Positions 3,830 to 58,769 of a stretch of 64,000 bases of DNA are shown here, piece after piece. The position numbers and the translations under genes are program-made. The stretch comes from Polytrichum commune (taxonomy: Eukaryota > Streptophyta > Polytrichopsida > Polytrichales > Polytrichaceae). The stretch spans positions 38,241,501 through 38,305,500 of the forward strand of contig OX485805.1 in the NCBI GenBank assembly GCA_950295325.1, given 5' to 3'. Under the pieces are notes generated by a model that worked only from the letters and a program-made list of their open reading frames with translations, had not been told where the DNA came from and ran no database searches. Every line of letters starts with the position of its first letter. Within the stretch, counting starts at the first letter, position 1.

Positions 3830-6104
3830 TCTGATAGGCTCGTCCTTGGAGGTCGTCGTGGATAAATTCATCACTTTTGCCTATCCAAGGTGTTGTAACT
3901 TCATATCGAGCTCCAAAGATTTTGTTTGTAATAGATACAATGAATAGTATTATAACACTCAAAGACCATTCGGGCTTCAAGTATGTTTGTGACAGTAGGT
4001 TCCCAAGGTAGCCCAAAGACAAATTATTTGTCTTTAAGATGTTAGTATATCTTTCAGGAAGTAATGTAGATCTTGTTAGCAAGTTAGAGGAAATATGGAG
4101 AATTCATGGATAATATTTGACCATATCAAAACATTTGAAGGACATGACCAACTTCGTGTGTCATATATATGATAGCTAATATTGTAAGGTATTGATCATT
4201 GCATGTTCTAACATGCAATTTGAAGATGGTACAACTCAGTTTGTCTTTTGGAAAAAACTTAAAATTTTGGTCATGGCGGAAAATTGAGTGTTGAACATAA
4301 ATTTCAAGAGTTTCATGATAGATAGTACGCATGCCAAGTGGACTGTAGTCAAAAAGATATATGGTAAAGGTGATCTAAGTCTGCCAATGGTGAGTCGCGA
4401 GTGCACTTGTCTTTTCCAATGGTCATAAAGTTTGGATAAGGTTGCGCAAAATTCTATCAAGGTATCTCTACAATTTTAGTACAAACATCTATACAAGGAC
4501 TATAAGGACGCAAAAACAATGGATGAAGCCGAAACTAAATATCATGTCATTTGTTAATAGTGGTTGTCATTGGAGCTACCACATAAGAAGGTATTCTTGG
4601 GCTCTTTGAGTGGTTGGACTTTTGGCACTTCCATTATAGGCAATGGGGTGGTCATATGATTCTTATAAGTGCATCACCACTGTGTTTTTTTTTAATATAA
4701 TCTAATTTGAGTAATTATGATATATAGAATCCATTGGAATTTATGTAATATTTCCAGGATATGACTATGGATGAACGTGTAGAAATGCCAACATGTAACC
4801 TTGTAGAGATGATGCACAACAAGTGGCTCCAACAATAAGGAAACATAATGACTTGTTTGTACGAAACAACAATGATCGATTTGATCCACGTATTTACATG
4901 TCATGGTTGAGATGTGGTTCTAATGGTAAAGGCCTTGATTCCGCATCCTTGAAATTGAAGGATGTTGCCAGGTGTGGAGATCCAAAGCTACTAGCAAATA
5001 CCATGAAGTCGCAGCCAAAGGTAGAAGATCTCACCACCAAAGATTATGTTTTGGAGGGGTTTGAGTTTTTTAGATCGATCAAACAAAAACTTGTTTTGCT
5101 ATCATGTACATATTGCGATTCACATTGATTTGACAAAATGAACTACTCAATTCCTCACCCAAATACTAGGGCTAAAAGGGAAAGCATAGAGGTGTCCTTC
5201 AATTATGCAGAGCACGGTGTGGCATATACCGCATTGGTATTAGAGACTAATTATCATTTTTCCATTGGCACAATGCAAGATTGTCACCCAATCCTGCCAA
5301 AAGATGGTGGACGATGCAAGCCAATATTGGGACTTTGTACAATGCCAAAGTCATAATTGCCAAACATGGCACCCTTGCTCCTACATATAAGGGATTAAAC
5401 AAGGAGCATTGTTCCACCAACAATGTGGAGTACGAGTTTTGGTTTTGCCCTGACAACATCAAATATTGTGTAAATGGTAGCAAGAAGAAGTACGTGTTGG
5501 ATTGGCTTGTAGTACCCGACATATGGCTAGTGAAGATACGTACTAATCTCTCAAGACATGAGGTATTGGCGCTTGAATTCATTGGGTTTCAATTGCAGCA
5601 AAGGAAGGTCCTCTATCCTTGCCGCAAACTTTCCACAATGGTAACACTCCCGATCACTCAAATGGATTTTTGCATTCCACTAAACTCGGATGTCCATCCA
5701 ACTTCTAGGTTTGGAAAGGCAGTGGGCCGTAATCTAGTAGCAATGATGGTTGATCACAAAAACAAATTGGAGAGTGTTGGCTTATGGACGATTATTATGT
5801 GGTTGGAGTAATTGCCATTCCATATCCAAGATTTGGAGTATTGATCAATATCATCTCCAAGGAGAACATGCATATCATGTCACAATTGGTGACATGCCGC
5901 TTTGCACATGCCCCGACTTCACAAAAATGTCATCTCAATTGTTGGGAAGGGAAGAGAAACGGGCGTATAGTAAACACCTTAAGTATGTGTTTAGATTTTT
6001 GTAGAAGGTGGATTACAATAGTGACAAATTCATTAACACTCCGACGTACTCCTATAATGAGGTCATGTTGTTACTTGAACTTGTAGGTGTGATAGAATGT
6101 GAGT
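3830..6104 (+). pseudogene. MULE-like transposase with SWIM zinc finger, decayed (copy A)
   Basis: A transposase remnant read across many frameshifts and stops. Recognisable blocks in order: RCCNFISSSKDFVCNRYNE (about 3890-3950); MQFEDGTTQFVFWKKL (4210-4257); FMIDSTHAKWTVVKKIYGKG (about 4311-4370), the likely region of a catalytic aspartate; FWHFHYRQWGGHM near 4624-4660; a probable intron ending in TTCCAG near 4755; then DERVEMPTCNLVE. From 5138 on it matches the minus-strand gene at 10412-11551 almost throughout, including FWFCPDNIKYCV and the SWIM signature CTCPDF with S-K-H in place of C-K-H. MULE transposases cut and paste DNA and often end in SWIM fingers. Several stops and at least three frame changes (near 4590, 5270 and 5810) show it is dead. 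Confidence 0.75.
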
Positions 6105-6339
6105 AATATCCCAAGTGTTGTGTTCAACTGCATGTTTGAGAATTTCAATAAGTGACATGTATTGGTGTAGATTGTAATTATAGAAATAAGCAATAAATTG
6201 ATAGTTCTTTAAAGTACCTATGGTAATAGGCTCGTTTCACTTTATTCTATCAAAATGCAAGTACTATATAATTGAAATTTTAAAAATACGAATACAAATT
6301 TTAAATAAGCCTTTAAATTATGAATATTTACTAAATTAA

Positions 6340-6416
6340 GTAGGTATTATTGCTCACTACTCACGTGTTACTGCTCATTGCTCTCACCGCTCATCGCTCA
6401 TGTTTTAGCTTCCCTC
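6340..6416 (+). repeat. Terminal repeat of MULE copy A
   Basis: The reverse complement of this stretch starts GAGGGAAGCT and continues with GAGCGATGAGCGGTGAG microrepeats, matching the left end of copy B (9506-9595). The 230 bp before it also match copy B's 3' flank, for example GACATGTATTGGT at 6153. This is therefore the 3' terminus of the element whose transposase ends at 6104. The partner end was not found. Confidence 0.7.
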
Positions 6417-7460: not shown

Positions 7461-8055
7461 AATTCCATAAGTGTTAACATTTTTTCTACTCCCTACTTGG
7501 GGAGACTACAATAACGTTAAGTGTTAAGTGTTAACTGATTGGCTACTCCCCTCTTTGTAATTTTGCCCTCTATATCTGTTAACTTATTATTATACTATAT
7601 AATACCATACAATACAATATACTGTAACATAGCACATATAATATACTGTAACATACTGTAACATACCCCCCATTTAGAGATTATTAGGGTTTAGGATATT
7701 GACTGCAAGTCCCTCCCTCGTCAACTCAGTTTACCCTAGCAGGTTGAGCCAGTCTACCAGCGTTCGAATTTATGAGAATGTTGTTTTCGAATTTCAGACT
7801 TGTAGGGCGAATCACATACCATTAGAAAGCTATTGAGGAGACGATTCCAATGGTAGTAGTTTTGTCGAATTCTGACTCCTAACGAGTGAGTTATGGTTGG
7901 CCGAAATCTGCCTTCCAAGTCTTCTGCGGCAGCGGTGGCAAGTTTTGTCTGATTAATTTTGAGGGTGCTGTATTATTTTTTGTGGATAGGGTTTGTGTCC
8001 TTGTGGTTTAGAGTCAATTTGCATCTGTCTTTCAATTTAATCTAGGACAGTAGAG
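7461..8055 (+). promoter_or_regulatory. 5' region of the pogo-like element
   Basis: Sequence between the left inverted repeat and the transposase start. It carries three more copies of a (T)AAGTGTTAAC motif in the first 80 bp, likely transposase-binding subterminal repeats. The rest is AT-rich leader. No separate gene is seen. Confidence 0.5.
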
Positions 8056-9505
8056 ATGGGGAAGGCTTCAAAGTTCAATTTGGCTCAGAAGAAAGAGATT
8101 TTGTGGTATCGGCAGAGTCACGTTGAGTCAGGGCAATATATTAGTAACAGAGCCCTAACATTGTGGGCAAATGCTAAATTCCAAGCCTCTTCATCTGAAA
8201 TGTCCATTTCCAGGTTACTCAAGAGAAAGGATTTGCTGGACTTAGACGTTGAAGCACCTCCAACTATTAAGAGAGTCAGAAAGGTTTACTACCCTCAGGT
8301 TGAGAATGCTACATTTTCTTGGTTTACACTGATGCAGGAACATGGTGCTACCATAACAGATGATCTTTTGATAGCAGCTGCAAAGAAATTCTACAACATG
8401 AGCCAGAAGGATCCATCTCAAAAGGAGCTACAATTTTCTAATGGGTGGTTGGAGGGCTTCAAGCGGAGGTTCAAGATTAAAGGCTACACTCGACATGGAG
8501 AAGCAGGTTCAGCAGACAACTCTCCAGAGGCCTTACAACGCATGGAGCAAATCAAACTCATATGTTCAAGGTACCAAGTCTCTGATATTTTTAATATGGA
8601 TGAAACTGGGCTGTTCTATCGATTAGAGCCAAACTGTACACTAGCCACACATCGCGTATCTGGTAGAAAAAAACAAAAAGAGAGGCTCACAATTGCATTC
8701 ACCAGTAATGCTGATGGTAGCATTAAGCTGCCTCCTTTTGTTATTAACAAGTTTGTGAAGCCTAGAGCCTTCTCTCAAAGAAATATTGTGAATCCTCATA
8801 ACCTTGGCATTTTGTGGGCAGCCAACAAGAAGGCTTGGATGACAACATAATTATTTGAAAGGTTTATGCTAGATTTTGAGGCAAGAATGGTTGCATTGGG
8901 CAAGCAGAAGGTTTTGCTTCTTGTTGATAACTTCTCAGGACACCAAACTCCTACCATAGGATCAAGGTTGCGTATCACTCAATTGGAGTTTCTACCACCC
9001 AACACCACTAGCAGATTTCAGCCCATGGATGCATGAATAATAGCCTCATTCAAAGCCCAATATCGCAAGCGAATGATTGAGCACAAGATCAATTGTTTGA
9101 TGTCTGCTCAGAATCCAGAGCTTGATGTGTATCAAGCAGTAGTCATGCTTCTTCATTCTTAGCGACATGAGGTTAGTTCTGAGACCATTCATAATTGTTG
9201 GAATCACACTGGAGTACTATCTATTCTGACCACCAATCAAGCATTACAGGAGGCTCACCAAAAAGAAGTGCAAGAAATCACCACACTTTTGGAGCGGCTT
9301 AGTGTGGTATGTCAAGCAAGCTCAGAGATCTCACCTAATATGACTGCAGAGGAATTCATCAACTATGAAGCTGAATTTGACTTGAATAATCCTTACCAAC
9401 CATCCAATGAGGAATTGATGGAGATGTTCAACCCAGATTCCTTTGTTGAGAAGGAGGATGACACTAAAACTTTTGCATCTAAACCTATAGCCCCTGTGTG
9501 TTACA
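8056..9505 (+). pseudogene. Pogo/Tigger-like DDE transposase, 5' part (broken; continues at 18097)
   Basis: The frame begins MGKASKFNLAQKKEILWYRQ. A CENP-B/Tc5-type helix-turn-helix region follows (about residues 10-150), including FSNGWLEGFKRRFKIKG. The DDE_1 endonuclease core shows FNMDETGLFYRL (first Asp near 8599), LLLVDNFSGHQTP (second, near 8926) and RFQPMDA (third, 9028-9030), so all three catalytic aspartates remain. The protein cuts at element ends and inserts into TA. In-frame stops at 8848 (TAA), 9034 (TGA) and 9160 (TAG) kill it. At 9505 the codon is split by the nested MULE element. The frame resumes in phase at 18097. Confidence 0.9.
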
Positions 9506-9600
9506 GAGGGAAGCTATCTTATGAGCGATGAGCAGTGAGCGGTGAGCGGTGAGCAGTAACACATGAGCAATGAACAGTAACATATGAGCAATGATTCCAA
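9506..9600 (+). repeat. Left terminal inverted repeat of MULE copy B
   Basis: Starts GAGGGAAGCTATCTTATGAG and continues with repeated GAGCRRTGA words. It matches the complement of 18020-18086 over roughly 60 bp at about 85 per cent by eye. The microrepeat composition may provide many transposase contact sites. Confidence 0.8.
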
Positions 9601-9837
9601 ATTTAGTAAAGACACACGGGTTTAGGGTACACAACCAAAATTTTGACAAATTAATTGCATATTTTCAATTGTAAATTGCCAATATTTTAAATGAAGCACA
9701 AGTGAAAGGGCCCTATTTCCATAGATCATTTAAAACACTTTCAATTCATTGCTGATTTTTATTATAATAATCCAAACCAATACATGTCATTTATTGACAT
9801 CCTTATACATGTAGTTACAACCAACACTTGCACAACT

Positions 9838-9960
9838 ACTCACATTCCACAACACCATCAAGCTCAAGTAGGTGCATAACCTCATTATACGTACATGTAG
9901 GTGCCATAATTGTGAGCCACTCAAACTGCTCACGGGTTGAATTAAGGCCCAGAATCTCCA
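9838..9960 (-). pseudogene. Extra 3' exon of the SWIM-domain gene (partial duplicate)
   Basis: Minus-strand frame ILGLNSTREQFEWLTIM, then APTCTYNEVMHLLELDG and VVECE with a TAG stop. The second half matches the end of the gene at 10412 (APTYTYNEVMRLLEL...VECE), but the first half (STREQFEWLTIM) replaces DYESDKFIH. The 3' flanking 70 bp (CATTGCTGATTTTTATTATA) also match 10323 onward. It is either the terminal exon of a second family member or an alternative last exon. No upstream coding partner remains next to it. Confidence 0.6.
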
Positions 9961-10007
9961 AATGAAAGGAAATTAGATATTAGAAATAATCAATATGTAG
10001 GTAACTA

Positions 10008-10215
10008 CTAGGTTTTGAGACATCCGCCTGTGGATGCGAGTTGTGTAAGAGACTGGTATTAGGTCTGTATCAACCCGGGTTCGAATCCGGTTGGTTACAT
10101 TGACTGGTGCTATCCCAAATTGAGCTAGTGATAAAGCAGGAATAATTTATAGGCGGATACCAAGACGACGTTACTACGCGGATGTGCGTAGAATCTTCTC
10201 AATTATTTTTTATTT
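10008..10215 (+). mobile_element. tRNA-derived SINE-like insertion
   Basis: The stretch contains a good RNA polymerase III B box, GGTTCGAATCC, at 10078-10088, preceded about 45-55 bp upstream by an A-box-like GGATGCGAGTTGTG. It ends in a T-rich tail at 10202-10218. This layout is that of plant tRNA-derived SINEs. It separates two related copies of the SWIM gene's 3' end. Clear target duplications were not found. A decayed tRNA gene alone is less likely because the sequence continues for another 110 bp. Confidence 0.6.
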
Positions 10216-10411
10216 TTAGAAACTTGTTATTATTTATCCATGTCAATCAATCAAACCGCTCACGGTTGGGTCGTAGTCTAAATAGAAATGAAGTTACTGA
10301 ATCATTTGAAATACTTCCAGCCCATTGCTGATTTTTATTATAAAAATCCAAACAAAAACATGTCATATTTTGACATTCAAATATATGGTACTTAATAGAC
10401 CATTTGCAATA

Positions 10412-11551
10412 CTACTCACATTCTACAATACCAACAAGTTCAAGTAGTCGCATGACCTCGTTATAGGTATATGTAGGTGCATGAATGAACTTGTCACTCT
10501 CGTAATCCACCTTGCACAAAAATCTAAACACATAATAAAGATGTTTACAATACACCCATTTTCCTTTCTTTCCCAATGCATGAGAGGACATTTTCGTGAA
10601 ATCCGGGCATGTGCAATGCGGGATGTCGCCAATTGTGACATGGTAGGTGATATCCTGCTTGGAGACAATGTTGATTATCACTCCAAAGCCCGGATATGGA
10701 ATGGCAGTGACCCCAACCACATAGTAACCCTCCATGAGCCCGGCGCTCTCCCATTTGTTTTTGTGATCCGCTAGCGGTGCTGTTGGATTACGACGCACTG
10801 TCTTCCCAAACCTGAATGTAGGGTGGGCGTCCGGGTTTGGTGGCATAGAAAAATGCGAACGAGGGATGGGGAGAGTTGCGATTGTTGAAAGCCTGCGACG
10901 AGGGGACAATGCCTCCCTCTGCTGTAGTTGAAATCCAGCATCTTCAAGTGCCAAAACCTCCTCTCGCGATAGATTGGTATCTATCTTCACCGGCCATGTG
11001 TTGGGTACTATAGGCCAGTCCAACACATATTTCTTCTTATTGCCACTCACACAATGTTTGATGTCGTCAGGGCAAAACCAAAATTCATACTCCACATTGT
11101 TGGGAGAGCGAAATTCCTTCCTGAGCCCTTTGTATGTTGGAGCAGGTGTGCCATGTTTCCCAGTCCCGACTTTGGCATTGCACATAGTCCCTGTGATGGC
11201 CTGCAGTGCCCAACATCGTTTGGCTGAGTTGGGTGGTAATCTTGCAATGTGCCACTTGGAAGCAAGACAATATGTCTCTAACACGGATGTAGTATGAGCC
11301 ACACCATGAATTGTAGAACTCAACGATTCCTCTATACGTTGACGAGTTGCTCGGGTGTTCGGACGAGGAATGGAATAGTTCACTTTGTCGGATCGATGAG
11401 AGTCACAATCAGCACCCGGTGGTAAGTTGAGTTTGCGTTTGGTGGATTTTGATGCGATGGAGGATGATGAAGGTGCAAAGAGCAAAGAAGATATAGACGA
11501 TCGTATATTAGAGTCCGAATTGAAGATGGGTTCAAAGAAGACGACAAACAA
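10412..11551 (-). CDS. SWIM zinc-finger protein, C-terminal half of a MULE-like transposase
   Basis: The frame is open for 379 codons to a TAG/TGA-class stop at 10412. It has no ATG near its 5' end: an in-frame TGA lies just upstream at 11563, so an upstream exon or a lost 5' part must supply the start. Order of blocks: Ser-rich basic leader; NYSIPRPNTRATRQRIEES; FWFCPDDIKHCVSGNKKKY; a basic linker; YYVVGVTAIPYPGFGVI; and a SWIM finger CTCPDF...YCKHLYYVFRFL (C-x-C...C-x-H intact). SWIM fingers bind DNA or protein and occur in MULE and FAR1-type proteins. The catalytic half seen in copy A is absent upstream, where the palindrome array begins. It diverges from the gene at 13100 and may be a free-standing DNA-binding module or a truncated transposase. 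Confidence 0.75.
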   Translation of the reverse strand: MFVVFFEPIFNSDSNIRSSISSLLFAPSSSSIASKSTKRKLNLPPGADCDSHRSDKVNYSIPRPNTRATRQRIEESLSSTIHGVAHTTSVLETYCLASKWHIARLPPNSAKRCWALQAITGTMCNAKVGTGKHGTPAPTYKGLRKEFRSPNNVEYEFWFCPDDIKHCVSGNKKKYVLDWPIVPNTWPVKIDTNLSREEVLALEDAGFQLQQREALSPRRRLSTIATLPIPRSHFSMPPNPDAHPTFRFGKTVRRNPTAPLADHKNKWESAGLMEGYYVVGVTAIPYPGFGVIINIVSKQDITYHVTIGDIPHCTCPDFTKMSSHALGKKGKWVYCKHLYYVFRFLCKVDYESDKFIHAPTYTYNEVMRLLELVGIVECE

Positions 11552-11579
11552 AAAGGTAAGTCAGTTCAACGTTCACATA

Positions 11580-12480
11580 ATTTGATAGTGCATAAGTTGT
11601 AAGTTAGGACGGAGAACCTTGTACGTTCACTCACATGTCATGTAGTATCAATTTATAGAGGTTATAAATTGGAGAGGAAAAACTCTATACGTTAATGTAC
11701 ATGGTATATAACATAAATTTAGGAAGGTTAGAAATCAGGAGGAAAATGCACAAGGTTTATAAGAGCAACTTGGGAGGCGAGAAGTTGGGAGGTAAAACCC
11801 TGTACGTTAACGCACAAGGTTTATAAGAGCAACTTAGGAGGCAAAAAGTTGGGAGGCGAAACCCAGTGCGTTAACGCACAGGGTTTATAAGAGCAACTTA
11901 AGAGACGAGAAGTTGGGAGGTGAAACCATGTGCGTTAACGCACAGGGTTTATAAGAGCAATTTAAGAGACGAGAAGTTGGGAGGCGAAACCCTGTGCGTT
12001 AACGCACATGATTAATAAGAGCAACTTAGGAAGGCCAAAGTTGGGAGGAGAAACCCTATGCGTTAACGCATAAGGTTTATAAGAGCAACTTAATAAGGCC
12101 ACAACTTAGGAAGGTCAAAGTTGGGAGGCGAAACCCTGTACGTTAACGCACATTTTACAAGTTTTGGCAAATTTACGAATTCCAGACTTGGCAAACGTTT
12201 TTTTTTCAAATTCACGTCTCGGCCCTGTGCGTTAACGCACAGGCCTTATGCGCTAATGCACAGGGTGTATGCGGTAACGCATAGTGGCTAGAAAGTTGCC
12301 AGCGCAGACCCTGTGCGTTAACGCACAGGGTCTACTTGCCTAGCTAGAGGCTTCGCAAAGTTGGGCAAGTAGACCCTGTCCGTTAACGCACAGGGTCTGC
12401 GCTGGCAACTTTCTAGCGGCTATGCGGGGCCACGAAGAGCCACGCTAAATATGGCTGCAGGGACAAGTAGTATAAATTGC
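11580..12480. repeat. Array of GTTAAC-centred 20-bp palindromes (about 64-bp period)
   Basis: The 20-bp palindrome CCTGTGCGTTAACGCACAGG, perfect or near-perfect, has its GTTAAC core at 11806, 11870, 11934, 11998, 12062, 12142, 12231, 12317 and 12382, with one more at 12863. The first five are exactly 64 bp apart. Spacers repeat GGTTTATAAGAGCAACTTA and GAAGTTGGGAGG. Degenerate units extend back to about 11615 and two broken cores lie near 12250-12280. The array fills the divergent promoter between the SWIM gene and the ParB-like/methyltransferase gene. Both strands read alike, as expected of sites for a dimeric DNA-binding protein. Confidence 0.9.
12288..12416. repeat. 53-bp inverted repeat (hairpin or cruciform)
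   Basis: Left arm 12288-12340 and right arm 12364-12416 are complements with one mismatch over 53 bp. Each starts or ends with CTAGAAAGTTGCC and contains one GTTAAC palindrome. The 23-bp loop includes the word TAGCTAGAGGC. The arms could form a stable cruciform. Confidence 0.9.
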
Positions 12481-12600
12481 CACAACCCCAAAGCATTCAG
12501 TCTTTTTTCTATCCTCCGTCGGACCTGAGCTCATCGCTGCAAGCTCTCTCATCTACAGGTGCAGTACAAGGTTTGTTTGCACTTTCGTGGTCACTGGGTA
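12465..12600 (+). promoter_or_regulatory. Likely promoter and 5' leader of the ParB-like/methyltransferase gene
   Basis: A TATA-like AGTATAAATT lies at 12467-12476, between the two palindrome arrays. A pyrimidine-rich stretch (CTTTTTTCTATCC) follows. A leader exon must lie between here and the splice acceptor TTTTAG at 13090, just before the ATG at 13100. The exact start and donor are not determined; CTACAG|GTGCAG at 12552 is one candidate. Confidence 0.4.
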
Positions 12601-12632
12601 ATTGCGCATAATCAGGCGTAAATTGCGCACAG

Positions 12633-12812
12633 TTTGGGTCGATCCACCCAAACTGTCTACCTAGTTTGGGTCGAACCACCCAAATTGTGAGCATGGTTTG
12701 GGTCGATCAACCCAAACTGTCTACCTAGTTTGGGTCGAACGGCCCAAACTGTGAGCATGGTTTGGGTCGTTCGATCCAAACTGTGAGCATGGTTTGGGTC
12801 GTTCGACCCAAA
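12633..12812. repeat. Six 20-bp palindromes at exact 32-bp spacing
   Basis: Units such as TTTGGGTCGATCCACCCAAA start at 12633, 12665, 12697, 12729, 12761 and 12793, an exact 32-bp period. Outer arms TTTGGG/CCCAAA are almost invariant, and the centre varies among GTCGATCC, GTCGAACC, GTCGTTCG and similar. Two 12-bp spacers occur: the first and third are CTGTCTACCTAG; the others read (C/T)TGTGAGCATGG. Three helical turns per unit would place the sites on one DNA face. This is an iteron-like array, not CRISPR: the spacers repeat and the units are palindromes. Confidence 0.92.
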
Positions 12813-13099
12813 CCTCGCGTCCAACTTTGTTAGACCTGTAGTTGGACGCACAGATCCTGTGCGTTAACATACAGGGTCTGGCCTTGTAGTTTTGGGGTGA
12901 GCGGCCACCCTAATCGTACAATATTTAAAGGTGCAAATGGTTGTGTCTAGAATAATTTTTGTCATTCTTCCCTATGTTCGTGGTATTCTGTTGTTATTGT
13001 TGTTGCTATTGTTGTTGTTTTTGTAATGTTATTGCTAATGTGTTGCTACTTGTTTTGAAATATTTATGAAACTTATTTCATTTGTTTTAGGACCAATCA

Positions 13100-14845
13100 A
13101 TGGATTTGGAAAGAACGACTCCTATTTCTACTGATGATGATTCCACGATGCATTCAATTCAAGATCGTCCATCTCAACAAGTTCATCATCATCAGGACAT
13201 ATCATCAAATCTTCATAATAAGAAAAAGGAAAAATAAATGAATCCCTCGATGATTTTGACTCGGATGAAGATAATGATGGTGACAATAAACTTTATCAAG
13301 AGAAATTGTGGGAGCTTACGAACAAACGAAAGGTGAATTCCACTTCCACAATTTCTTCAATCCGTGCTGGACCTAATGCTCGCTTGCGTGTACCCTTATG
13401 TCGCATGGTTCCTATGCCGATTGTGCGTCATGCTTTGAAGGGTGACATTACTAAATTGGAGGCTGATTTTTTCAATGGTTATCGTAATGGTGATTGTGTG
13501 TTTTATATATCGGCCACCGATTCTAAGGGAAACTTTCAATTCGTGGATGATGAGGTTCGCGCATCTTGGAGCCCAAATTGGGCTCAAACCAATGTCCTGT
13601 TTGAATCTCAATTGGATACAGATTTGTCATTGACATCATACAAAAACAAGATGTTTTTTATATGGGATGGAAATCACAGATTTCTTGCTTGGAAAAATTA
13701 TATTGACCGCGTATATACCGAAGATTATTAACGTCATGTCTTTGTGGATTCTATTATTTTGGCACCCGAGCCTGACGATATTCCAAGTTTGTTGACTGCT
13801 ATGCATGATATCAACAAGTAATGTTCTTACCTATTTTTTTACACTTATTTCTAGTTTATATTTTATTTTCTAAATTATATTATCATGAATCTAATCAATT
13901 TAATGTTTCTTTAGGTCAACCGAAAATTCTCACGTATTCACCAATTTGGTGCATATTTTATATCGGATGCAAAGTATTGGCACTATGCCTTTGACTTCAT
14001 TCAGAAAGCAATTGGATCCAAAGAGTTATAAACGATGTAAGGAGAAGTCCGTCGAAACTTAGTATTCTTTGACACGACCAATTTTTTTGGATTACATGTA
14101 CAGTGTAAGTTCTTCTACCATTGCTAATATGTGCCTTATGTTTATTCACCTTCATTTTATATTACATCTATATGAACTTATAAATATTGATTTTTGTTTG
14201 ATTTTTCAGCAAGAACTTGCTGAGGCTAGCGATATTGCTTTCAACCAGTACAATGATACTCATTATCTTGAACGGACATCAGACGGAGTTTCAAAAGCAA
14301 TGTCCGCAGCTGTCAACAAAAAACGTGCAATGTTATCTTCTAGTTTTACGAAACAACTAGCGATTGCCGATATCAACCTTACATCTGCTTTCCTTGAAGA
14401 AGTTAAGCACCATTGGGGTTCATTTTCGGTGCCTGAAATGCTACAAGAGAAACTTTATCGTGTTGCTGTCAGTAATGTGGATGCAGAAGTCAAAGTTGGA
14501 TGGCTTATGCTTTGGAATGGCAATAGATTTGACAAAGATGCATTGCATTTCCCGAAATCGCCCCTCTCTGATTCTGCACTTGATGATTGGTTATCAAAGT
14601 CTACATATTGGGCACAGTTGGAAAAAAAGGCTATCGAAGAGCTTCAAAGTATTCTTTCATCTCCTCTTCAGTTGCCTGCAGATGTGCCTACTCTCTCCGA
14701 GTATATCCAAACCTAGAAGTTTGCGGCTTTCAATTAAATATTCTATCGTGAATTCCAAAGCGGAAAAGTTAAAAAACACAACGGTTGGGATGAGCAACCT
14801 AATATTGATCTTGCTATGAAACATGTATTATACAGGTACAACCTA

Positions 14846-14876
<31 letters not shown>

Positions 14877-17800
14877 TCAAATTGTCATGGAATATTTGAC
14901 TTACAATATTTTTGTGTGTAGGTATTTTCGATATGTTTTGATTCCACATAAATGCGTTATAGGGGAACCTCGTTTTTTCCCAAATTGGCGTGACACTGGT
15001 GTAGGAGATTCATGCATGTTCACTCCTGGGATTTGTTTGGATTGGTCGCTCCCACACTATGAGGATTGTGGTTGGTATCTTGATTGTCCTAAGGATGCAT
15101 GTCCGTCAAGTGAGAAGACAATCCTTCAGATAAATGATGTTAAAAATGTGGATCCTCGTGATACTGCAATTTTGCAAGCACAAATTGTGCAGCTTAAACT
15201 TAGAGAGCCAGAACCAAAAGAGACAAAACGTCGTAAGAGGAAACATGTTCCTGAAACCAAAATAGAAGATCAATCGGAAATTTTACAACATGAAGAATTG
15301 CTTGTTCTTTCCAATGTTTTAGATAAGAATCCACTTGGAGGCGAAAGTTCAAAGTCTGGGTGCGATGTATTGGAATTCCATTACTCGAGCACCTATGACG
15401 CTATTCATCGTGCGCCAACGAATGTTTTGAGAAAATAGTTATTCATACTGAAGAACTTTCTCACGCTCTCTTTTGCTCGATCTACTGTTGTCAAGAACAA
15501 GTCTGAAGGGGTTGAAGTAGGCCCTCCTGAGTGGATCCAATGGCAGATATTTCTTGAAAACGTAAGTATTATTGTTTTGGTATTTTCTGTAATGTTCTTA
15601 CTTTCATTTGGATTTTATTTTGTGTCTTATATTGTGATATGTTGTGGTATTTCAGTTCAAAGATAATCGCGAATTTCATGTCATGGGAAGTCCGACTCCA
15701 TTTGCCGTTGACTTGGTTTTTTTACAATTTCCCGACGGTCTTGACTTCAACCTCTCCAATAGACCTGCTGAAATTCCTCTTTGGAATAAATATGACAAGA
15801 ACTGGATGGTTGCAACAATGTCCTTGTGCAAGTCCATCTTGTTTGATGATGACGTCCTCATAGTATTTTCTGCTATCGATATGCAAACCAAGAAGGTTTT
15901 GAATTCAACCTTACACAACGGCAACATGAAAGTTCTTAGGACTTTTATTTGCCTCAATTCGTACATGGTGTTCAAGGATCCGGAGTCTCCAACCTACACC
16001 GTAAGTATAACATATCACAATTGTTTCTATTTAATTATTTTGGTGTTATTTGCATTGTATATAGTTTTAACACAATTTATATTTTTTTGTAGACTTCGGC
16101 ATTTATGGCTCATGTCTTGGTAAGGGATTTTACTACCACAAAATCCACGAGACAACCAAACTCCACTTTTTTTGGCACTGGATTGAAAAGCAAAAACTTG
16201 CTTTTCAATTTTGTGGATGAAAAAAACATGCTTCTTCAAAAATCGGGAAGACCTTGGAGGGGGCCATATAAAAAATCGCCGCGTTTTTTTCAAGATCTTA
16301 TTGAATTGTTTACACCATCGAATGGACGCGTTGTTGATTTGACATGTTCCACTGGAGCTTCTATCCTAGCAACACGCGCATGTGGCAGACATCTTCTTGC
16401 ATTTGAGGGTGATAATGACATATTTGAGCACATATTGAAACCGCTTTTGGAAAACGTTTTGAAAGAGGGGTCATCTAAGGAGAATATACAAGATCTCACA
16501 AAAGAAGATGATAACCTCTCAGATGAGGAGATGCTTGAATTTGAGTGTGAGTAAGTTTTAATACAATAAATTTTTATTCAATTCATTCGTTTCATTCAAT
16601 TCATTGGTTCATTTTTATTTCTTCACATTATTTACATGTTTCATCGATTTGATTTCAGGAATACGATTGGAAAGAGGACATGTCTCCCGTTTTGGGCACA
16701 TAGACAATTCCTACGAAGTCCAAGCCGTTGTCGCAACCCTTGCTAACCCCCCTTGACAATCTTGCCAATTTTCAATTCTAGCAAAGGTTACGAGTGGCTA
16801 ACCCTTCGCATACCGCCATGCTAATGGTTAGCTCCTCTAACCCCGGACCAATAGTTCATAGGAGGGAACCAACCCTCCTACTTTGCTTTCGGGACTCACC
16901 CCTTAATCGGTAACCCATTTCCCCAATGTGGACTTCCATCCATGGAAGTCCAATCCTATGTTGATCATCGTGTTGCCGTAGCAACATTACAACAACCCGA
17001 ACCATACTAGGCAACTATGGCCTCACAATAGGCCAAAGCCCATGGAGGCCTTGCCGTTCGGCCTCGGGTGGGTGAGGCCACACCACCTCACCCATATAAG
17101 CCTCTAGGACTCTACACGGGGCCCCTACCCCACCGTCAACCAACCTCTTGTCTCTCTACCAAGAGTTGGGGCCAAGTGGACATTTTCCCTTAGCCGCTGG
17201 GCCTAGAAGCCCCCACAGCTTCAGACCATCATAACTTCCTTGTATGATGTCTGATGCTAACACTTGACCACTCCATCTTCATCTACGCTTCACGTAGATG
17301 CCGATGCACTCCTCACTTGCCCCATTCGGGCAAGTGGTGAGGAAGTTATGCCTGTTTGAACCTTTGCAGTCCCAGGAATCACTCCCAGGCACTGCTGTAC
17401 CAGGGCGCTGTCCCGGGACAGCGCCCCACTCAAATGGCCATAACTCCTAGCTCACACCTCCGATTAAGGTGTTCTTGAGCATTCTAGAATCACCACGCCA
17501 TGAGCTACGCATAGCTTATGGCCTTACCCTTGTGCATCCTAGTCTCCGTGGGTGGGAGGCGTTCCCAACGCCCGGGGCCCTCACCCACACTAGGATCACT
17601 TGGGCCCTCTCACCAACGGCGCCACAAGTCCCGGGTGTCACTCCGGGGTCCCCCTTGTGCCCATGGTGTTTCGGGCACTCCTCATGGAGAGGTGCGCGAC
17701 AGCCGTAGCCCGCGTCTCCCATCATATGCCGAGAATGTTGCAATTGCAATGTTGAATCTCGAAGATTTGGATCCAAATGAAGAATCTTGCTATAGTTCCA

Positions 17801-17889
17801 AAATCAATTCGCAATGCAAAGGTGCTCGAATATATATAGATGACGAGGCAAAAGATAGTTTCATGTCTAGTGCTACTACTGATGAATAA
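13100..17889 (+). pseudogene. ParB-like domain plus beta-class DNA N4/N6-methyltransferase, broken
   Basis: Seven exons with GT-AG introns and consistent phase: 13100-13817, 13915-14104, 14210-14835, 14922-15561, 15656-16000, 16093-16550, and 16659-16688 joined to 17721-17889. The N-terminal part has the ParB-like signature FFIWDGNHRFLAWKNYI, then VFVDSIIL...AMHDIN. The C-terminal part has VDLVFLQFPDG where N4/N6 methylases carry VDLVxxDPPYG; WMVATMSLCKSILFDDDVLI, as after motif IV; YKKSPRFFQDLIELF (motif X-like); and VVDLTCSTGAS with AFEGD (motifs I and II, S-adenosylmethionine site). A basic KETKRRKRKH sits between. Lesions: one-base frameshift in the A-run near 13223-13234; stops at 13729, 14060, 14714, 14735 and 15436; and a 1-kb insertion at 16689. 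The catalytic DPPY is already LQFP, so even an intact relative may bind rather than methylate DNA. Confidence 0.8.
16689..17720. mobile_element. LTR-like insertion in the last exon of the methyltransferase gene
   Basis: A GC-rich block interrupts the exon. It is flanked by the 7-bp direct repeat GTCTCCC (16682-16688 and 17714-17720). Removing it restores a continuous frame, RTCLPSYAENVAIAMLNLED. It has a TATA-like CATATAAG at 17093 and pyrimidine-rich tracts like a solo LTR, but no clear TG...CA termini, so the class is uncertain. The open frames in it (17469-17710, both strands) look accidental. Confidence 0.6.
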
Positions 17890-18009
17890 ATTTTTGGACT
17901 TCATGTTGTTTATCATTCTCAACCCTCTTATTACTAAACCCTAAAATCATCATTTTTAAGGCCACAATTCCACGGTTATAGGATATTGGTGGCCCTATTA
18001 CCAAAATTT

Positions 18010-18086
18010 TCATCTTCCTCACTGCTCATAAGTTACCGCTCATCGCTCACCGCTCATTGCTCACCGCTCATAAGATAGCACTCCCC
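18010..18086 (-). repeat. Right terminal inverted repeat of MULE copy B
   Basis: The complement reads GGGGAGTGCTATCTTATGAG and continues with GAGCGGTGAGC microrepeats, pairing with 9506-9600. It abuts the 10-bp target duplication at 18087-18096. Confidence 0.8.
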
Positions 18087-18096
18087 GTGTGTTACA

Positions 18097-18221
18097 AGGA
18101 TGTGTAGTCTTCTCTTCAAACTTTACGTCATTATCTTGAGCAGAGGTCTACTGATGTTATGCATTTGGTCAAGAAATTAGAAAAGTTTGAGAAAGAGATT
18201 GATCACCTACATGTGAATTAG
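18097..18221 (+). pseudogene. Pogo/Tigger-like transposase, 3' part
   Basis: Continuation of the frame interrupted at 9505. Dropping the insertion and one 10-bp target copy keeps the phase and gives APVCYKDV, a TAG stop at 18105-18107, then SSLQTLRHYLEQRSTD and KKLEKFEKEIDHLHVN with the natural stop at 18219-18221. The basic, heptad-like tail is common at pogo transposase C-termini. The TAG reads as a C-to-T change from CAG. Confidence 0.8.
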
Positions 18222-18458
18222 CTCCAGTAGACCTCTATAGATGCCTTCTTCCATCCTAGAGGAGTGGAAATGGAGGAGTGAGACTCCTCAATTGTATTTT
18301 GGAATTTCATTTGGTATTATAACAATATTTTACTTGTGTTACATTTATACGTGTTATGTTTTGATTTGTTAAACTCTATATTTCTATAAGTGTTAACACT
18401 CTATAAGTGTTAACAATATTACCACTCCCAATTGTTAACACTTATAGAGGGTGGACTG

Positions 18459-33152: not shown

Positions 33153-36100
33153 ATGTCTCGGAAATTACTCAGTTTGCACTTGGAGCAACAAGATGAGGAC
33201 CCATATTATGTGGGGGTTCCAGGTGATGAAGTTGGCTCCTCTAGACGACACCGTCGCAAGCGTCGTGCTCCAGTGCACATTGGGCATGATGTGGGTGGAA
33301 CATCTGCAAGTAATGACCCCCAACTTGTGGATTCCATGCCTTCTCCCCCATCAAGAGATCGGACCTATTTGTGTCCATGCAGGTTGTGTGCATCTATTGT
33401 TGGTATGCCATCATATTTGACTTTGCAAGAGTTAGAAGATCATCTCTCCAACCATGGGATGGCTCCAGCCCAATTGGTATGCAATTTCAAACCCGGTTTA
33501 ATGCAATTATTGAATGATGTCATTAAATTCTTTACATTATAAAATTTACATTTTTAGATTGAAAAATGTATTTGTTAGACTTAAAATTTACTACATGAAG
33601 TGTTCATTTTCTGTGTAGAATCCTGATGCATTCCCGGATGGTCTTCCGGGATATCTTGAAGAACTTACGGGTGCTCGCCCAAATGAATCAGCCGGAGTTT
33701 TTATGAATTCGATGTTCTCAGACGAGGAAGGTCACTCAATAGACGATGTCCTTAATGGGCAATATGACGATGATGATCCTCTTCCTCAAATCTTGGAAGA
33801 TTTTATGGAAACCAATATTCCTGACCACACCACAACAACCGGTGGCAACAATATTGGTGCCGATCCTATAGCCACCCCCCCTACTGAAGGTGACCGTTTT
33901 CTACATGAGCAATCCCAAGTGCCAATTTATGATGGTTCCCCGACTTGCATGTTGAAAGCTCTTGTCTTGATTCTACAATTTCAAGTGAACTTCAATATAT
34001 CCAATGTTGCCATCTCATCAATGCTGTCAATGATATCCAATTTTTTCTTACCTAAGCATCTTAACCCCATATTGCCTAAAAGTCACGCTGAATTAAGGAA
34101 ATTCATGAGGGCAGTGGGTTTGGGCTTTACTCACATTCATTGTTGCCCTAGAGATTGTATTCTTTACTACGGTAAATACAAGATGCGGGATCATTGCCCA
34201 ATATGCAAAGAAAGGAGATATAGACAAGACACAAAAGGAGTTCAAGTGCCCAGGAAAGTAAGTCACCGACCCCAATAGACCAACAATCGTATGTAATTTC
34301 ATTTCTTCATTTGTTTATAGTAATTCATTTCTTCATTTACCAATAATATTACAGTTCTCAATTTACTTATTAAATGTGATGTGCAAATGTCATGATAAAC
34401 CCACAACTGCTAAATAATTATATTTGTTGTTGCAGAAAATGATTTATTTCCCTTTGATACCACGCCTTCAAGCCATATTCCGTAGTCCCACACTTTCCAA
34501 ACTTATGGTGTGGCACGCTGCAAATAAAAGCAAAACAAGGATAATGAACGGACCTCAAGATGGACGTGCTTGGAGGCATGTTGACACAACATGGCCAGAG
34601 TTTGGTTCGTCCCCAAGAAATGTAAGGCTTGGTTTGTCAACAGATGGGGTGAATCCTTTCGGGCAACAACGAACTAACCATTCAACATGGCCAATCACCC
34701 TTGTGTTGTACAACCTGCCACCATTTCTTGCTATAAGGACTTCTTTCATTTTATTGTCAACAATAGTACCAGGTATTGCGCACGTGCACGAACACACATT
34801 AACTCACACACTTATTGATGGCGTTGCCTTACATTAAGACTTCTTTTTAATTAAGTGTAATTGTGAGTTAAATTTGGGAATTGAATGCGCAGGTCCAAAA
34901 CAAGTGAAAAATATTGACGTTTTCATGGGCCCCTTAATTGATGAACTCAAGTTATTGTGGAATGGAGTTCCCAACACTTATGACGCACACCGCAAAGAGC
35001 TATTCAATTTGAAGGCAATTTTGTTGTGGACTATGACGGATTTTCCAGGTATGTTATTTATTGATTTACTTTTCTTTGACTATTCCAATATGCACAATTA
35101 GGAAATGGTGGCTTAAAACCTGTATACCTCAACTAATATTATGAAAAGGTTTGTATATAGATATATTTAGTGTGTAGGGTAATGATAGTCGTCGGATGCA
35201 AATGGACCAGAGACAACTAGGTATTAATTTGATCTATCAATAATATGGAAGGATTCGATTGTGGTCTATTTTCAAGAGTACTAAAAATAGGCAAAATCTC
35301 ATCTACTTTGTGGATGAATTATTACATCCAATGAACATGGGCGTTAGTTAATTGGATGTGAAGGAGTAAAACACAATGAATTTACAGGGGGATAGATGGA
35401 TAAATTCGATATGAATATGGGACGTTTGTATTTGTCCCAGGAAAAAGTCCAGTCTCAATCAGTGCCCAAGAAGTTTTTGAGCATAGTCGATTGAGATCCT
35501 AGTGATTCTGACCTAAACCAGTTACATGTTCAAATATTCCTGTTTTACTATATTAGTTTGAGATATATACCATAAATTTCTCTAAAGTTCTTGGTAATTC
35601 TCCCGAAGTCGTGAACATCAACCGGTTCATATGCAACTAACCGCTGGTTCTTCCAATAGATAGGTCTCCATTCCCTGGATGGATGGATGAATTCGGTGCA
35701 AGTCTGGGACGTTCGTATTTGTCCTAAGAAAACGTCCAGTCTCAATCAGTGCACCGGAAGTTTCAATCAGTACATAGGTCTCTATTCCATGGATAGATGG
35801 ATGAATTCGGTATGAATCTAGGACGTTCGTATTTGTCCTAAGAAAAAGTCCAGTCTCAATCAGTCCCCACCCAGTTTTTGACCATAGTCGATTGAGATCC
35901 TAGTGAATCTAAACCCTAAACCAGTCACTTGTTCTAATAATCATGTTTTACTATTTTAACCTTGAGATATATACCATAGATTTCTCTAAAGATCCTGGTA
36001 ATTCTCCCGAAGTCCTGAACATCAACCGGTTCATATGCAACTAACTGCTGGTTCTTCCCATACATAGGTCTCCATTCCAATTCTGTATTTTGCTCTGAAA

Positions 36101-38735
36101 ATGTTCATGATTCACAAAACAAGGGATCATTTCATCATGCCTTTAGTTGGCAAGATTAACAGACTTCATAATCTAGCAAGGCTTGATAGTGTAAATTTAT
36201 GTTTGCGCCAAACAAACACAAGCTTTTGCGAATAACAAATAAATCTGATGTGCACTGTGATTGAATTAAGTGTTCCTAATTTCAGGCTATGTATTTACTT
36301 TTATATTTTAAATTTTAAATCATCTAAGTCATAGTTGGTGAAGTGCAGGTTTGGGTGTCGTGTCTGGTTTGGTTACTCGGGGTAAAAGAGCATGCAATGT
36401 GTGTGCGGACAATCTAACCTTTATAGTGAGTCCGCATTTGAAAAAAACTATTTATCCATCATTTAGACAATTCTTGCCACTTGCACACAAATGGAGGAAA
36501 CCATACTTTAAGAGGAAGTTCGGAGGTCATTTAAATAACAATCTAATTCCTGTGAGACCTGATGGACGTTATTGGATACGGCGTTGGAGACAAACTCGAG
36601 AAACAAACATGCCAAAAGATAGAAGAGGGATGAAAAGATTGTCGGCCTTGTTCACTCTACCTTATTGGAAGGTATTTATCTAGACCAAGCACCCAAAAGC
36701 TATGAAAATTGTACATAGAAATGTATTTATCAACTATTTATATTCCCTTCAACCTTTTGATATTTTCAATTATATTGAGTCTTAAGTTTGTGGGTAAATG
36801 TACAGGATCTTCTCATACGCCACTTGCATGATTGCATGCACATAGAAAAAAATGTTGTGGAAACAATGATGAAGATTTTTTCCAACGCAAAGGGGACAAG
36901 GGCTGATCGATTGGCAGTAAGAAAAGAATTACAAGCTGAAAATAAGTTAGTGAATTATCATCCCCGAAATGATGGGTCATTCCATAGAGCGTATTGGGTA
37001 TGGAGCCGTGAGGACATGGAAAAAAAATTTAATCGAATATCTTCGATTAAAACACCCACAGGTTTTGTTTCAAATCTTGCTAACAGAGTGACTTCGGATT
37101 ACAAGTTATCTGGCATGAAGTCTCACGACTATCATGTCCTTCTACAATTCATTTTACCTATTGTCATTCGGGGTACGTTGTCTAGGGAAATCAGAGAAGG
37201 CATCTACAGGCTTGTTACATTTTTGAGATGGATTTGTGGAAAAAGTATAGTTACCGAGGAGATTCCATTTTGGAAGGTAGAGATTGCAGAGATCATGTAT
37301 TTGTTTGAGACATGTATGCCACCGCATTTTTTCGATATTATGCCTCACTTGTTGGTACATCTTCCTGAAGAGGTGGAGCTAGGAGGTCCAGTGCATAGCA
37401 GATGGTTGTATTTCCTCGAGAGGTATATGAAAACTTTAAAATCAATGGTCCGGCAAAAAACCATCATGAGGGTAGCATGAGTGAAGGATACTTGGCCCAA
37501 GAGTCATTGTTTTATTTTGGAGAAATGCTCACGAGGATCAATCCCACCGGGAGACAAATTTGGAATGAAGACATGATGCCAAAGCCAAACAAAGTGATTT
37601 TGCCCAAAACACGCACAAAGAAAAAGTTGGATAACGACACTCACAAACAGGTAAACAAACACTCCCAAAAAATTTGTTAATGTAGCTGCCAATGTTTTAG
37701 TATATTTATATGTAACATACTTCATAGCTTATGCATTTGTACCCAATCGCAATATGACTTCAGATTATGATTGTTTGATATGGATACATTATGGGAATGC
37801 AGATTCATGAGTATCTTTTGTTTAATGAGCCCTGCATGGGTGTATGGGAGATTAAATACCGAAAGGAGAGAGCAAGATGGGCAAGGGAAAAGGTGAAACC
37901 GTTGAAATCATTTTTGGAGTGGGTTCAAGAACAAGTATTTTTGGGGTTAGTTGGAAATGAACCATTGTCTTCTGAAGTACAAGAAATAGTGAACGGCCCT
38001 AGCCAAGCCGCATACTACTATAAATCTTGCACAATCAATGGACGACATTACAGAATAGATTCGGCAGATGAAAATGCGCCCGTTACAACAGATTCAGGCA
38101 TTGCTACTCCTAGCTACATAGATTGTGTATCTAGGAAAAATGATCCCCGTAGCCAACGAGCTAAACTCCAATACTATGGAGTTTTGGAAGAAATAGTGGA
38201 GGTTCAATTGTCATCTCAACGGAAAGAAGTTTTGTTTAGGGGGAAGTGGTACAATACTATTGTTGGATCACATAACCGTGTTACCCAAAAAGAGGATGAA
38301 TGTGGGTTCATGAAAATCAAAAGTCGGTTAAATTTAGGTAATCGGGAGCCTTGGGTTAGCGCAGATACAATCACACAAGTGTTTTACCACCAAGATAGTG
38401 AGGATGAGGATTGGAGCTATGTTGTTGATGTGGAAGGACGAGGCTACATGGAGGCAACAACGATTCCTGGTTTGGTTCTAAATGAACCATTAGTGGAAAG
38501 CCAAATAAGGGAGTTGGCGGGAGGTTCAAATTCCGAACCCCTAATTCATGCTATGAGGAATTCACGTACAGAACCGGTTCCAGATGAAGTGGTGGTAGCA
38601 ATTATTGTGAATGAGGCATTTTTGGAGGAGAATTTGGCTGACACTATGAGGGAATTGGAGGCGGCCAGTAGCGACAATTCAGAGAGGAGCGATGGTGATT
38701 CCATTGAACGAGAGGATTCTGACATAAGCAACTAA
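33153..38735 (+). pseudogene. CACTA transposase, TNP2 type, nearly complete but frameshifted
   Basis: Seven exons with canonical splice sites: 33153-33476, 33619-34257, 34436-34772, 34893-35048, 36349-36671, 36806-37650 and 37803-38735. Order: N-terminal zinc-finger-like CPCRLC...HLSNHG; ILQFQVNFNISN with GFTHIHCCPRDCILYYGKYK and CPICKERRYR; RNVRLGLSTDGVNPFGQQRT (Transposase_21 core); GPLIDELKLLW; GKRACNVCADN; HDCMHIEKNVVETMM; the DUF4218-like LPEEVELGGPVHSRWLYFLE; and a C-terminal DUF4216-like LQYYGVLEEI...WVSADTITQVFY. TNP2 proteins bind and cut CACTA ends. One lesion stands out: a one-base frame change at the A-run near 37455-37465, after which KNHHEGSMSEGYLAQESL continues in another frame. 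It could be a real inactivating indel or a sequencing error. Confidence 0.88.
35060..36340. repeat. Large transposase intron filled by a duplicated dispersed repeat
   Basis: The intron between 35048 and 36349 is 1.3 kb, much longer than its neighbours. It holds two or more partial copies of one repeat: AGTCGATTGAGATCCTAGTG at 35488 and 35887, AACCGGTTCATATGCAACTA near 35620 and 36025, and GTATTTGTCC(T/C)A blocks at 35430, 35717 and 35830. Relatives occur at 39090-39385, 39830-40030 and 45540-45790. It encodes no protein. Confidence 0.75.
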
Positions 38736-58256: not shown

Positions 58257-58640
58257 CTTTCGGCCATCGTGGCGGGCAGCGAGTCCGCGTGTGAAGCTCC
58301 GACGAAGACGAAGCCCGTGGCATCTGGTGCGGGGGCACATAAGCTAGGGTTTGGCATGGCCATGGGGGGAAGGGAGGGGAAGGGAAGGGAAAGGAAGGGA
58401 AGGGATGGCAGACGGGGCGGGGCAGGCTGGGTCAGTCGTGCCCGGTGGTCGAGGACAGCCAGCCAGCCAGCCAGCCAGGGTTTGGTTTGGTTTGGTTCGG
58501 TTCGGTTCGTTCGTTGGTTCCCTAATTCCCTCCGACTCCGCTCCGGTCCTTTCCCTTCCGTTCCTTTCCTTTGCCTCCCCTTCCCCGCCTCTCCGGTGTT
58601 TCGCGGCCTGTTCGCGGCCTGTTCTCGGGGACCGGGGGGC
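58257..58640 (-). other. 5' exon (leader or short coding extension) of the PHD/GNAT gene
   Basis: Minus-strand sequence upstream of the GTACGA donor has an ATG at about 58363 reading MAMPNPSLCAPAPDATGFVF and continuing to the splice site. If joined to an acceptor TTGAAG|CCTGGG near 57008, it would run in frame into the main ATG and add about 40 residues. If the GGGCAG acceptor is used, it is an upstream open frame in the leader. The choice cannot be made from sequence alone. Confidence 0.4.
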
Positions 58641-58760
58641 CTGTAAGTTAAGTAGGTAATCTGCTGTGCTGTGCTGTGCAGTGCAGTGGCCTGCCTCGCG
58701 TGGCTCGCTGCTGCACCCGAAGTCGGGGTTTGCGGGGCGGTTGTTTCGGCGCATCACCTG
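58360..58760. promoter_or_regulatory. GC-rich promoter region with purine and GTTCG repeats
   Basis: GC-rich sequence upstream of the PHD/GNAT leader exon, with GGGAAGG purine runs (58366-58410), CAGC repeats (58458-58480), GGTTTGGTTTGG/GGTTCGGTTCG runs (58479-58512) and CTGTG repeats (58660-58685). This is typical of a constitutive plant promoter and leader. No TATA box was chosen. Confidence 0.5.
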
Positions 58761-58769
58761 ATCGGCTGC

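Follow-up and report, generated by a model that had tools for sequence, protein, structure and literature searches.

VANDAL transposons belong to the Mutator-like elements (MULEs). In Arabidopsis, their VANC proteins bind to tandemly repeated short motifs in noncoding DNA, which causes silencing marks to be lost, according to the accessible part of the report (PMC10398659). In bacteriophages, ParB-like folds are often fused to N6_N4 methylases, as stated in the available text of PMC12704722, which gives GxxR as the Box II P motif of ParB-like folds. Bacterial-type amino-methyltransferases also occur in eukaryotes: in the accessible parts of the respective reports, MpDN4MT1a/b of Marchantia deposits N4-methylcytosine (4mC) and has no extra N- or C-terminal domains (PMC8566409), and N4CMT of bdelloid rotifers deposits 4mC, carries the motif SPPY and a chromodomain, and is of the permuted PF01555 type (PMC8885841); neither is described there as transposon-borne. 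Here, we analysed a 64,000-nucleotide stretch of the moss Polytrichum commune (GenBank assembly GCA_950295325.1, contig OX485805.1, positions 38,241,501 to 38,305,500; hereafter the window), in which an earlier note, made from the sequence alone, had placed a ParB-like domain fused to a DNA amino-methyltransferase fold inside a MULE-like transposon. Our explanation of the locus as a whole, offered tentatively, is a dead copy of a MULE-like element carrying the gene of a self-targeted protein with a ParB-like block and a methylase fold. That a methylase-fold gene is borne by a transposon we consider very probable, and the self-targeting mechanism is put forward more tentatively than the explanation as a whole.

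The element and its gene

The gene (13.1-17.9 kb) lies inside an 8,581-bp element spanning 9506-18086, which is bounded by terminal inverted repeats (TIRs) of about 68 bp at both ends (left, plus strand, 9506-9573; right, minus strand, 18019-18086). Immediately outside the two TIRs, at 9496-9505 and 18087-18096, are identical copies of the sequence GTGTGTTACA, a perfect 10-bp target-site duplication that falls within the 9-11 bp of a MULE with TIRs. The element splits a decayed pogo/Tigger-like transposase gene (8041-9495 and 18097-18230), whose first 269 codons match HTH_Tnp_Tc5 (E 6.5e-14) and DDE_1 (E 8.6e-11) of Pfam. When the flanks were joined with a single copy of the duplication, the pogo/Tigger-like frame was preserved: three stops precede the junction, a fourth follows closely, and the next one comes after 37 open codons. 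Since this host gene had already decayed, the join lends the insertion only moderate support, and the case for the element boundaries is carried by the duplication and the TIRs.

Inside the element, a minus-strand open frame of 382 codons without in-frame stop (10415-11560) carries a SWIM-like CxC..CxH motif and is presumably the remnant of the 3′ part of a MULE transposase. Its Pfam SWIM match (E 0.069) is under the cut-off, its first methionine is residue 126, and its other sub-threshold Pfam rows were taken as chance. The length of the duplication, the TIRs and this frame together point to a Mutator-like element. The transposon setting given in the earlier note is thereby borne out by the 10-bp duplication, the TIRs and a second element with a similar end, described below.

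The seven GT-AG exons in consistent phase that the earlier note had proposed were re-derived on the plus strand; exons 1-6 join, and the seventh starts at 16659. Exon 1 (13100-13817) encodes an acidic N terminus followed by the ParB-like block with WDGNHR, its main frame being open from 13222. Exon 2 (13915-14104) starts with the conserved KSTENSHV, which continues the MHDIN end of exon 1, exon 3 (14210-14835) encodes a conserved middle region, and exon 4 (14922-15561) encodes the remainder of that region and a linker. The first half of the methylase domain, with LQFPDGL at the position of the catalytic motif, is in exon 5 (15656-16000); motif X (RGPYKKSPRFFQDLIELF) and the S-adenosylmethionine (SAM) motif I, VVDLTCSTGAS, are in exon 6 (16093-16550). 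Exon 7 (16659-17889) ends with TAA at 17887-17889. The six introns measure 97, 105, 86, 94, 92 and 108 bp. The DGNHR block and VVDLTCSTGAS are thus both present where the earlier note had placed them, in exons 1 and 6. Joined, exons 1-6 give 951 codons with five in-frame stops (13729 in exon 1, 14060 in exon 2, 14714 and 14735 in exon 3, and 15436 in exon 4), whereas 2000 shuffles of the same bases averaged 61 stops and never had fewer than 38; the other two frames of the joined exons have 27 and 89 stops.

The exon model of the earlier note stood in its seven exons and had overlooked three further features. Exon 7 is split by a solo-LTR-like (long terminal repeat) insertion of 973 bp with TG..CA ends (16729-17701), flanked by the 5-bp duplication GCCGT (16724-16728 and 17702-17706), and the frame resumes after it. 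The frame of exon 1 changes near 13,225, in an A-rich stretch. Finally, a plus-strand stretch of 33 codons at 11457-11555, running from an ATG to a GTAAGT donor and joining in phase at 13091, is a possible upstream coding exon; it is open and lies antisense to the first ~35 codons of the minus-strand SWIM-like frame. The coding sequence of the gene may actually start in this candidate; exon 1 would then begin at 13091, and the palindrome arrays described below would fall in the first intron. A putative TATA-like box, TATAAAT, lies upstream of the gene on the plus strand (12471-12477). The gene copy is broken in several ways, and this copy of the element is dead.

At 5072-6416 lies what is left of another, diverged element, which belongs to the same TIR family and is oriented the opposite way. 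Its end at 6416 has a TIR similar to the left TIR, and the self-BLAST match stops exactly at 9506; its other, left end was not found in the window. A decayed copy of the SWIM-like frame at 5072-6103 matches from residue 38 on, with 45-75% protein identity by piece. Beside it, a stop-ridden stretch at 4200-4680 looks by eye like a MULE transposase core (MIDSTHAKWTVVKKIYG...) and has no Pfam match. In the first element, a 181-bp direct duplication (9725-9904 and 10301-10480, 81% identical) lies at the 3′ end of the SWIM-like frame, and a tRNA-like B box (GGTTCGAATCC) within 10010-10150 possibly marks the insertion of a short interspersed nuclear element.

Relatives and domains of the encoded protein

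A search of 5.8 billion proteins, in which the 7,993 candidates sharing the most words with the query were scored, identified Ceratodon purpureus M758_1G295400 (P0001, 1,147 amino acids), which is 31% identical over 93% of the joined protein (E 2.3e-113). A second, alignment-based search added KC19_7G101700 of the same moss (P0002, 661 amino acids), homologous from the middle region on, and a third search from the methylase part of P0002 returned the same two proteins. No homolog outside Ceratodon purpureus was found in these protein searches, which rely on shared 5-residue words, so that more distant relatives may escape; the relatives are two only. P0001 and P0002 are 57-59% identical across their overlap, and their gene-model prefixes differ. 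They share with the window protein the order of blocks and have the PF01555 domain; unlike it, they have open reading frames, and they are annotated as hypothetical or by the methylase domain. We considered an alternative genetic code with the stops read as glutamine and dropped it, as none of the five stops faces glutamine in P0001, where by eye the residues are E, W, N, Y and T.

Both relatives being from a moss, the plant origin stated in the earlier note holds as far as two matches allow; the kinds of transposons in the surroundings also speak for it. Its proposal that the protein was acquired from a phage or bacterium was not shown: prokaryotic matches were weak and confined to the methylase half (one search gave 99 phage records up to E 0.1, the best at 7e-5, and another gave 22 records up to E 0.01), and no close prokaryotic source was found. 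Scans of IMG/VR and of bacterial and archaeal genomes for encoded relatives found none, and a Pfam scan of the joined window protein up to E 1 returned no family.

As judged from profile comparisons, the C-terminal domain is a permuted N4/N6 amino-methyltransferase fold, and the window copy is a member of this fold that is not predicted to be an active enzyme. P0001 matched PF01555 with 30.4 bits (curated cut-off 26.7) over profile positions 2-217 of 221 with the motifs in order, and P0002 with 35.0 bits, its best stretch being positions 146-218, the second half of the profile; the window's own sequence reached 15.7 bits (E 0.015), under the 26.7-bit cut-off. All PHROGs (4) and PADLOC (13) rows of P0001 were methyltransferases. 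In the PDB, the only notable relatives of the two-sequence profile were the DpnA entries 5hek/5hfj (E 0.0016); the other rows were taken as chance, one top row (E 1e-4) summing weak repeats of a designed repeat protein. We then compared a profile of the three plant sequences with six phage methylases, aligned from nine fetched sequences, and obtained an E-value of 2.4e-18 with an hhalign alignment co-linear over 204 columns; the observed score was 125.2, and none of 100 column shuffles of the trio exceeded 23.5. The Ceratodon pair alone gave 1e-16 against the phage methylases, and the window protein alone gave P 1.1e-7 over 63 columns covering motifs X and I only, a score that none of 100 shuffles of its sequence reached. 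The fold assigned in the earlier note is therefore supported by PF01555 in both Ceratodon proteins and by the phage-methylase profile match. Its motif order, IV-like, X-like and then I, likewise holds in the alignment: this permuted arrangement, which ends with motif I at the C terminus, was found in the P0001 profile, in hhalign and in the MAFFT-aligned window.

Motif IV reads DTPF and DQPY in the Ceratodon proteins and DIPY, DPPF, DVPY, DPPY, DPDY and DLPY in the six phage methylases, so that five of the latter have the form D-x-P-[YF] and the sixth is DPDY. Because the phage motifs are similar, the Ceratodon forms are plausible for an enzyme. In the window, the position is occupied by LQFPDGL, which aligns as Q-F-P-D without gaps or as Q-F-P-L with two residues inserted (MAFFT). 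The catalytic pattern (D/N/S)-x-P-(Y/F/W), which fits the Ceratodon proteins, is absent from the window under either alignment: the acidic residue and the aromatic are both lost, which requires at least three base changes. The loss of the DPPY motif reported in the earlier note is thus supported for this copy. Since at least three base changes are needed, yet the copy has only five stops, decay of the motif after insertion appears unlikely, and the prediction is that the lineage probably lost catalysis and retained the SAM motif VVDLTCSTGAS.

The N-terminal half was compared with ParB-like folds. WDGNHR is invariant between the window and P0001, the two sequences that cover this block, as is LTAMHDINKSxENSHV. 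WDGNHR contains GxxR, the P motif; GxxR by itself is frequent by chance. Pfam gave no PF02195 row for the N-terminal half of P0001, for full P0001 or for the joined window protein, the HMMER filters hiding most matches above about E 0.1, and no match annotated as ParB or sulfiredoxin was obtained for the N-terminal half in Pfam, NCBIfam, PHROGs or the PDB. Three PHROGs rows, all without description, were taken as chance: phrog_9020 (E 0.008, 30 residues), phrog_19133 (E 0.066) and phrog_27359 (E 0.27, GNHR region). A tblastn search of phages with the N-terminal half of P0001 returned nothing up to E 10, and the Ceratodon counterpart of the conserved middle region (exon 3) has no Pfam match. 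Against 10 phage ParB domains, fetched from 511 phage records matching a ParB-like bait, hhalign aligned 11 columns only (P 0.052-0.075), best at GNHR versus the phage GHGR box, and the score was reached by 9 of 200 column shuffles (8 of 200 without the insert). AlphaFold2 models had a pLDDT (predicted local distance difference test) of 36 for P0001 with a 5-row alignment and 34 for window exon 1 with P0001, presumably because the relatives are few, and the best Foldseek match of the pLDDT-34 model of exon 1 had an E-value of 4.5. Of the ParB-like domain named in the earlier note, the invariant block stood, and neither the profile searches nor the models added to it. We call this half ParB-like by motif and order only and do not file it as ParB; a ParB fold seems somewhat more probable than not.

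Palindrome arrays and the readings of the locus

The noncoding stretch between the minus-strand SWIM-like frame and exon 1 holds two palindrome arrays. Of the 16-bp palindrome TGTGCGTTAACGCACA, 13 copies, 4 of them exact and the rest with at most 3 mismatches, occur across 11620-12873, with starts from 11620 to 12858, partly as 64-bp tandem repeats (11748-12092), and a perfect 28-bp palindrome is found at 12306. The 22-bp palindrome GTTTGGGTCGATCGACCCAAAC occurs in 6 copies (1-3 mismatches each) at an exact 32-bp spacing across 12632-12813. When all 64 kb were scanned, every match fell inside the arrays (13/13 and 6/6). Perfect palindromes of at least 12 bp number 6 in the 1.5-kb array stretch, versus a mean of 0.4 and a maximum of 3 in 200 shuffles; the other 62.5 kb contain 24. 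The 12 intervals of the 16-bp array are 181, 64, 64, 64, 64, 80, 89, 21, 21, 44, 65 and 481 bp, and 7 of them, at 21 or 64-65 bp, are near whole helical turns; much of the stretch consists of 64-bp and 32-bp tandem repeats, and tandem duplication alone could yield such spacing. The two consensuses contain the short symmetric cores GTTAAC and TCGA, and methylases recognise cores of this kind. With the LTR left out, the element has an observed/expected CpG ratio of 0.81, and the remainder of the window one of 0.48. For the interrupted pogo/Tigger-like piece the ratio is very low, 0.22, and for the inserted LTR it is 0.53. Recent insertion and little methylation in the past would both account for the high ratio of the element.

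Tandem arrays of short motifs in noncoding element DNA (13 and 6 copies here) recall the VANDAL elements, whose anatomy is parallel, and our best reading, by analogy, is a self-targeted DNA-binding or marking protein. As far as the accessible description goes (PMC10398659), the two have in common an extra gene and short-motif tandem repeats in noncoding DNA; the window motifs differ in being palindromic, and the likeness is one of layout, without a sequence relationship in the Pfam scan, in which the joined protein matched no family. The setting in a MULE-type element is shared as well. Under this reading, the MULE-like DNA transposon carries, next to its SWIM-like, transposase-derived frame, a gene with introns whose product, a plant protein of about 1,000 residues, is laid out as an acidic start, the ParB-like block, the middle region and a C-terminal beta-class N4/N6 amino-methyltransferase domain. 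The protein would act in trans on the DNA of its own element by recognising the palindrome arrays before the gene, in the promoter or the first intron, and this recognition would keep the array region accessible. In copies of the Ceratodon type, with D-x-P-[YF], accessibility might come from methylation of the arrays; in the lineage of the window, with the catalytic motif lost, the protein might bind SAM and DNA and act against silencing or as a regulator, resembling VANC in function. The element ends, the gene, its homology, the methylase fold, the loss of the motif and the arrays are established from the sequence; the ParB fold, the binding of DNA with its targets, and the anti-silencing role are inferred.

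Several points weigh against this self-targeting account. The window contains one element only with this gene, which may be a one-off capture, and tblastn found no trace of it in the related element near 5.1-6.4 kb, of which one end only is defined. The Pfam scan, which covered the SWIM-like frame and the gene, picked up no DDE transposase core. The ParB fold is without statistical support in Pfam, hhalign or the PDB. The 1.5-kb windows at 1 and 58501 have CpG ratios of 0.85 and 0.87, as high as that of the element, which can be explained by recent insertion alone, and the palindromes could instead serve the transposase or a host factor.

MULEs often capture genes. Gene capture by these elements is treated in the accessible part of one report (PMC9168764), and the main rival, because the related element nearby is without trace of the gene, is a passenger capture of the Pack-MULE style, in which a host gene of bacterial ancestry has no role for the element and the arrays are ordinary promoter repeats. 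The annotation of the Ceratodon relatives, hypothetical or by methylase domain, is in keeping with such a passenger. However, what is carried is a whole intron-containing gene with its full domain set rather than a fragment, the protein searches gave no homolog outside Ceratodon purpureus, and the element kept this gene, yet showed no recognisable transposase core in the two frames scanned; we regard passenger capture as rather unlikely. A further step down in probability is an active element-encoded amino-methyltransferase that would mark its own palindromes on adenine or on cytosine N4, with the motif lost by decay in this copy only. DQPY and DTPF, within the form of five of the six phage methylases, and palindrome cores of the methylase-target kind speak for such an enzyme; the three or more base changes in the motif, set beside five stops in 951 codons, suggest that the loss probably preceded the decay. 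Moreover, replacing the catalytic S and Y inactivated rotifer N4CMT, according to the available text of PMC8885841.

Another alternative concerns the N-terminal half, which might be an unrelated domain, neither ParB nor sulfiredoxin, leaving the methylase half alone of prokaryotic type. The four databases without a ParB-annotated match, and an 11-column alignment equalled by 9 of 200 shuffles, fit this view, which is credible if less favoured than a ParB fold; yet the best profile match falls exactly on GNHR versus the phage GHGR box, and by eye the WDGNHR and INKS blocks are placed like GxxR and D-N-K in phages. The order of head and then methylase is also that of the fusion frequent in phages, in the accessible part of PMC12704722. 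Of the 10 fetched phage records, three (L012, L013 and L018) were seen by eye to unite a ParB-like head with a permuted methylase in a single chain, and a fourth (L016) is annotated as ParB-like and methyltransferase. Like the window protein, such fusions have a GxxR-type head and a permuted C-terminal methylase in a mobile-element setting; unlike it, L012, L013 and L018 are 411-416 amino acids long without the long middle region, and direct sequence similarity to the plant protein is in the methylase half only. On an improbable extension of this likeness, a prokaryote-type self-recognition module, a ParB-like nucleotide switch fused to an amino-methyltransferase, would have been taken over by a eukaryotic transposon and would load at the 16-bp and 22-bp arrays in its noncoding DNA, in formal analogy to ParB at parS; the element would thereby be marked, exposed or segregated. 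That the motifs are accidents of a repeat-rich region is refuted by the homology (E 2.3e-113), the open frame (5 versus 61 stops) and the methylase profile match.

Other features of the window and significance

Long open frames at 33619-38735 resemble by eye an En/Spm (CACTA) transposon, and we take them to be TNP2-like and DUF4218-like. A GC- and CpG-rich segment at 57500-58800 has long low-complexity frames on both strands and is perhaps the 5′ end of a gene. At the gathering threshold, Rfam had no match anywhere in the 64-kb window.

The literature within our reach, which excluded most subscription papers and was judged by titles and the openings of abstracts, yielded no description of a plant transposon carrying a ParB-like/methylase protein; as evidence of absence this is weak. 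MpDN4MT1 and N4CMT are likewise bacterial-type amino-methyltransferases in eukaryotes. The open Ceratodon relatives make enzyme and binding tests feasible. If a ParB-like module was indeed taken over, it would give plant transposons one more way of escaping silencing, and land plants a source of DNA marks other than 5-methylcytosine. The gene and its adjoining arrays offer a tangible candidate for a second class of transposon protein that counteracts silencing, and, if our explanation is true, the locus would show how a prokaryotic DNA-marking protein can enter plant genomes and spread there.

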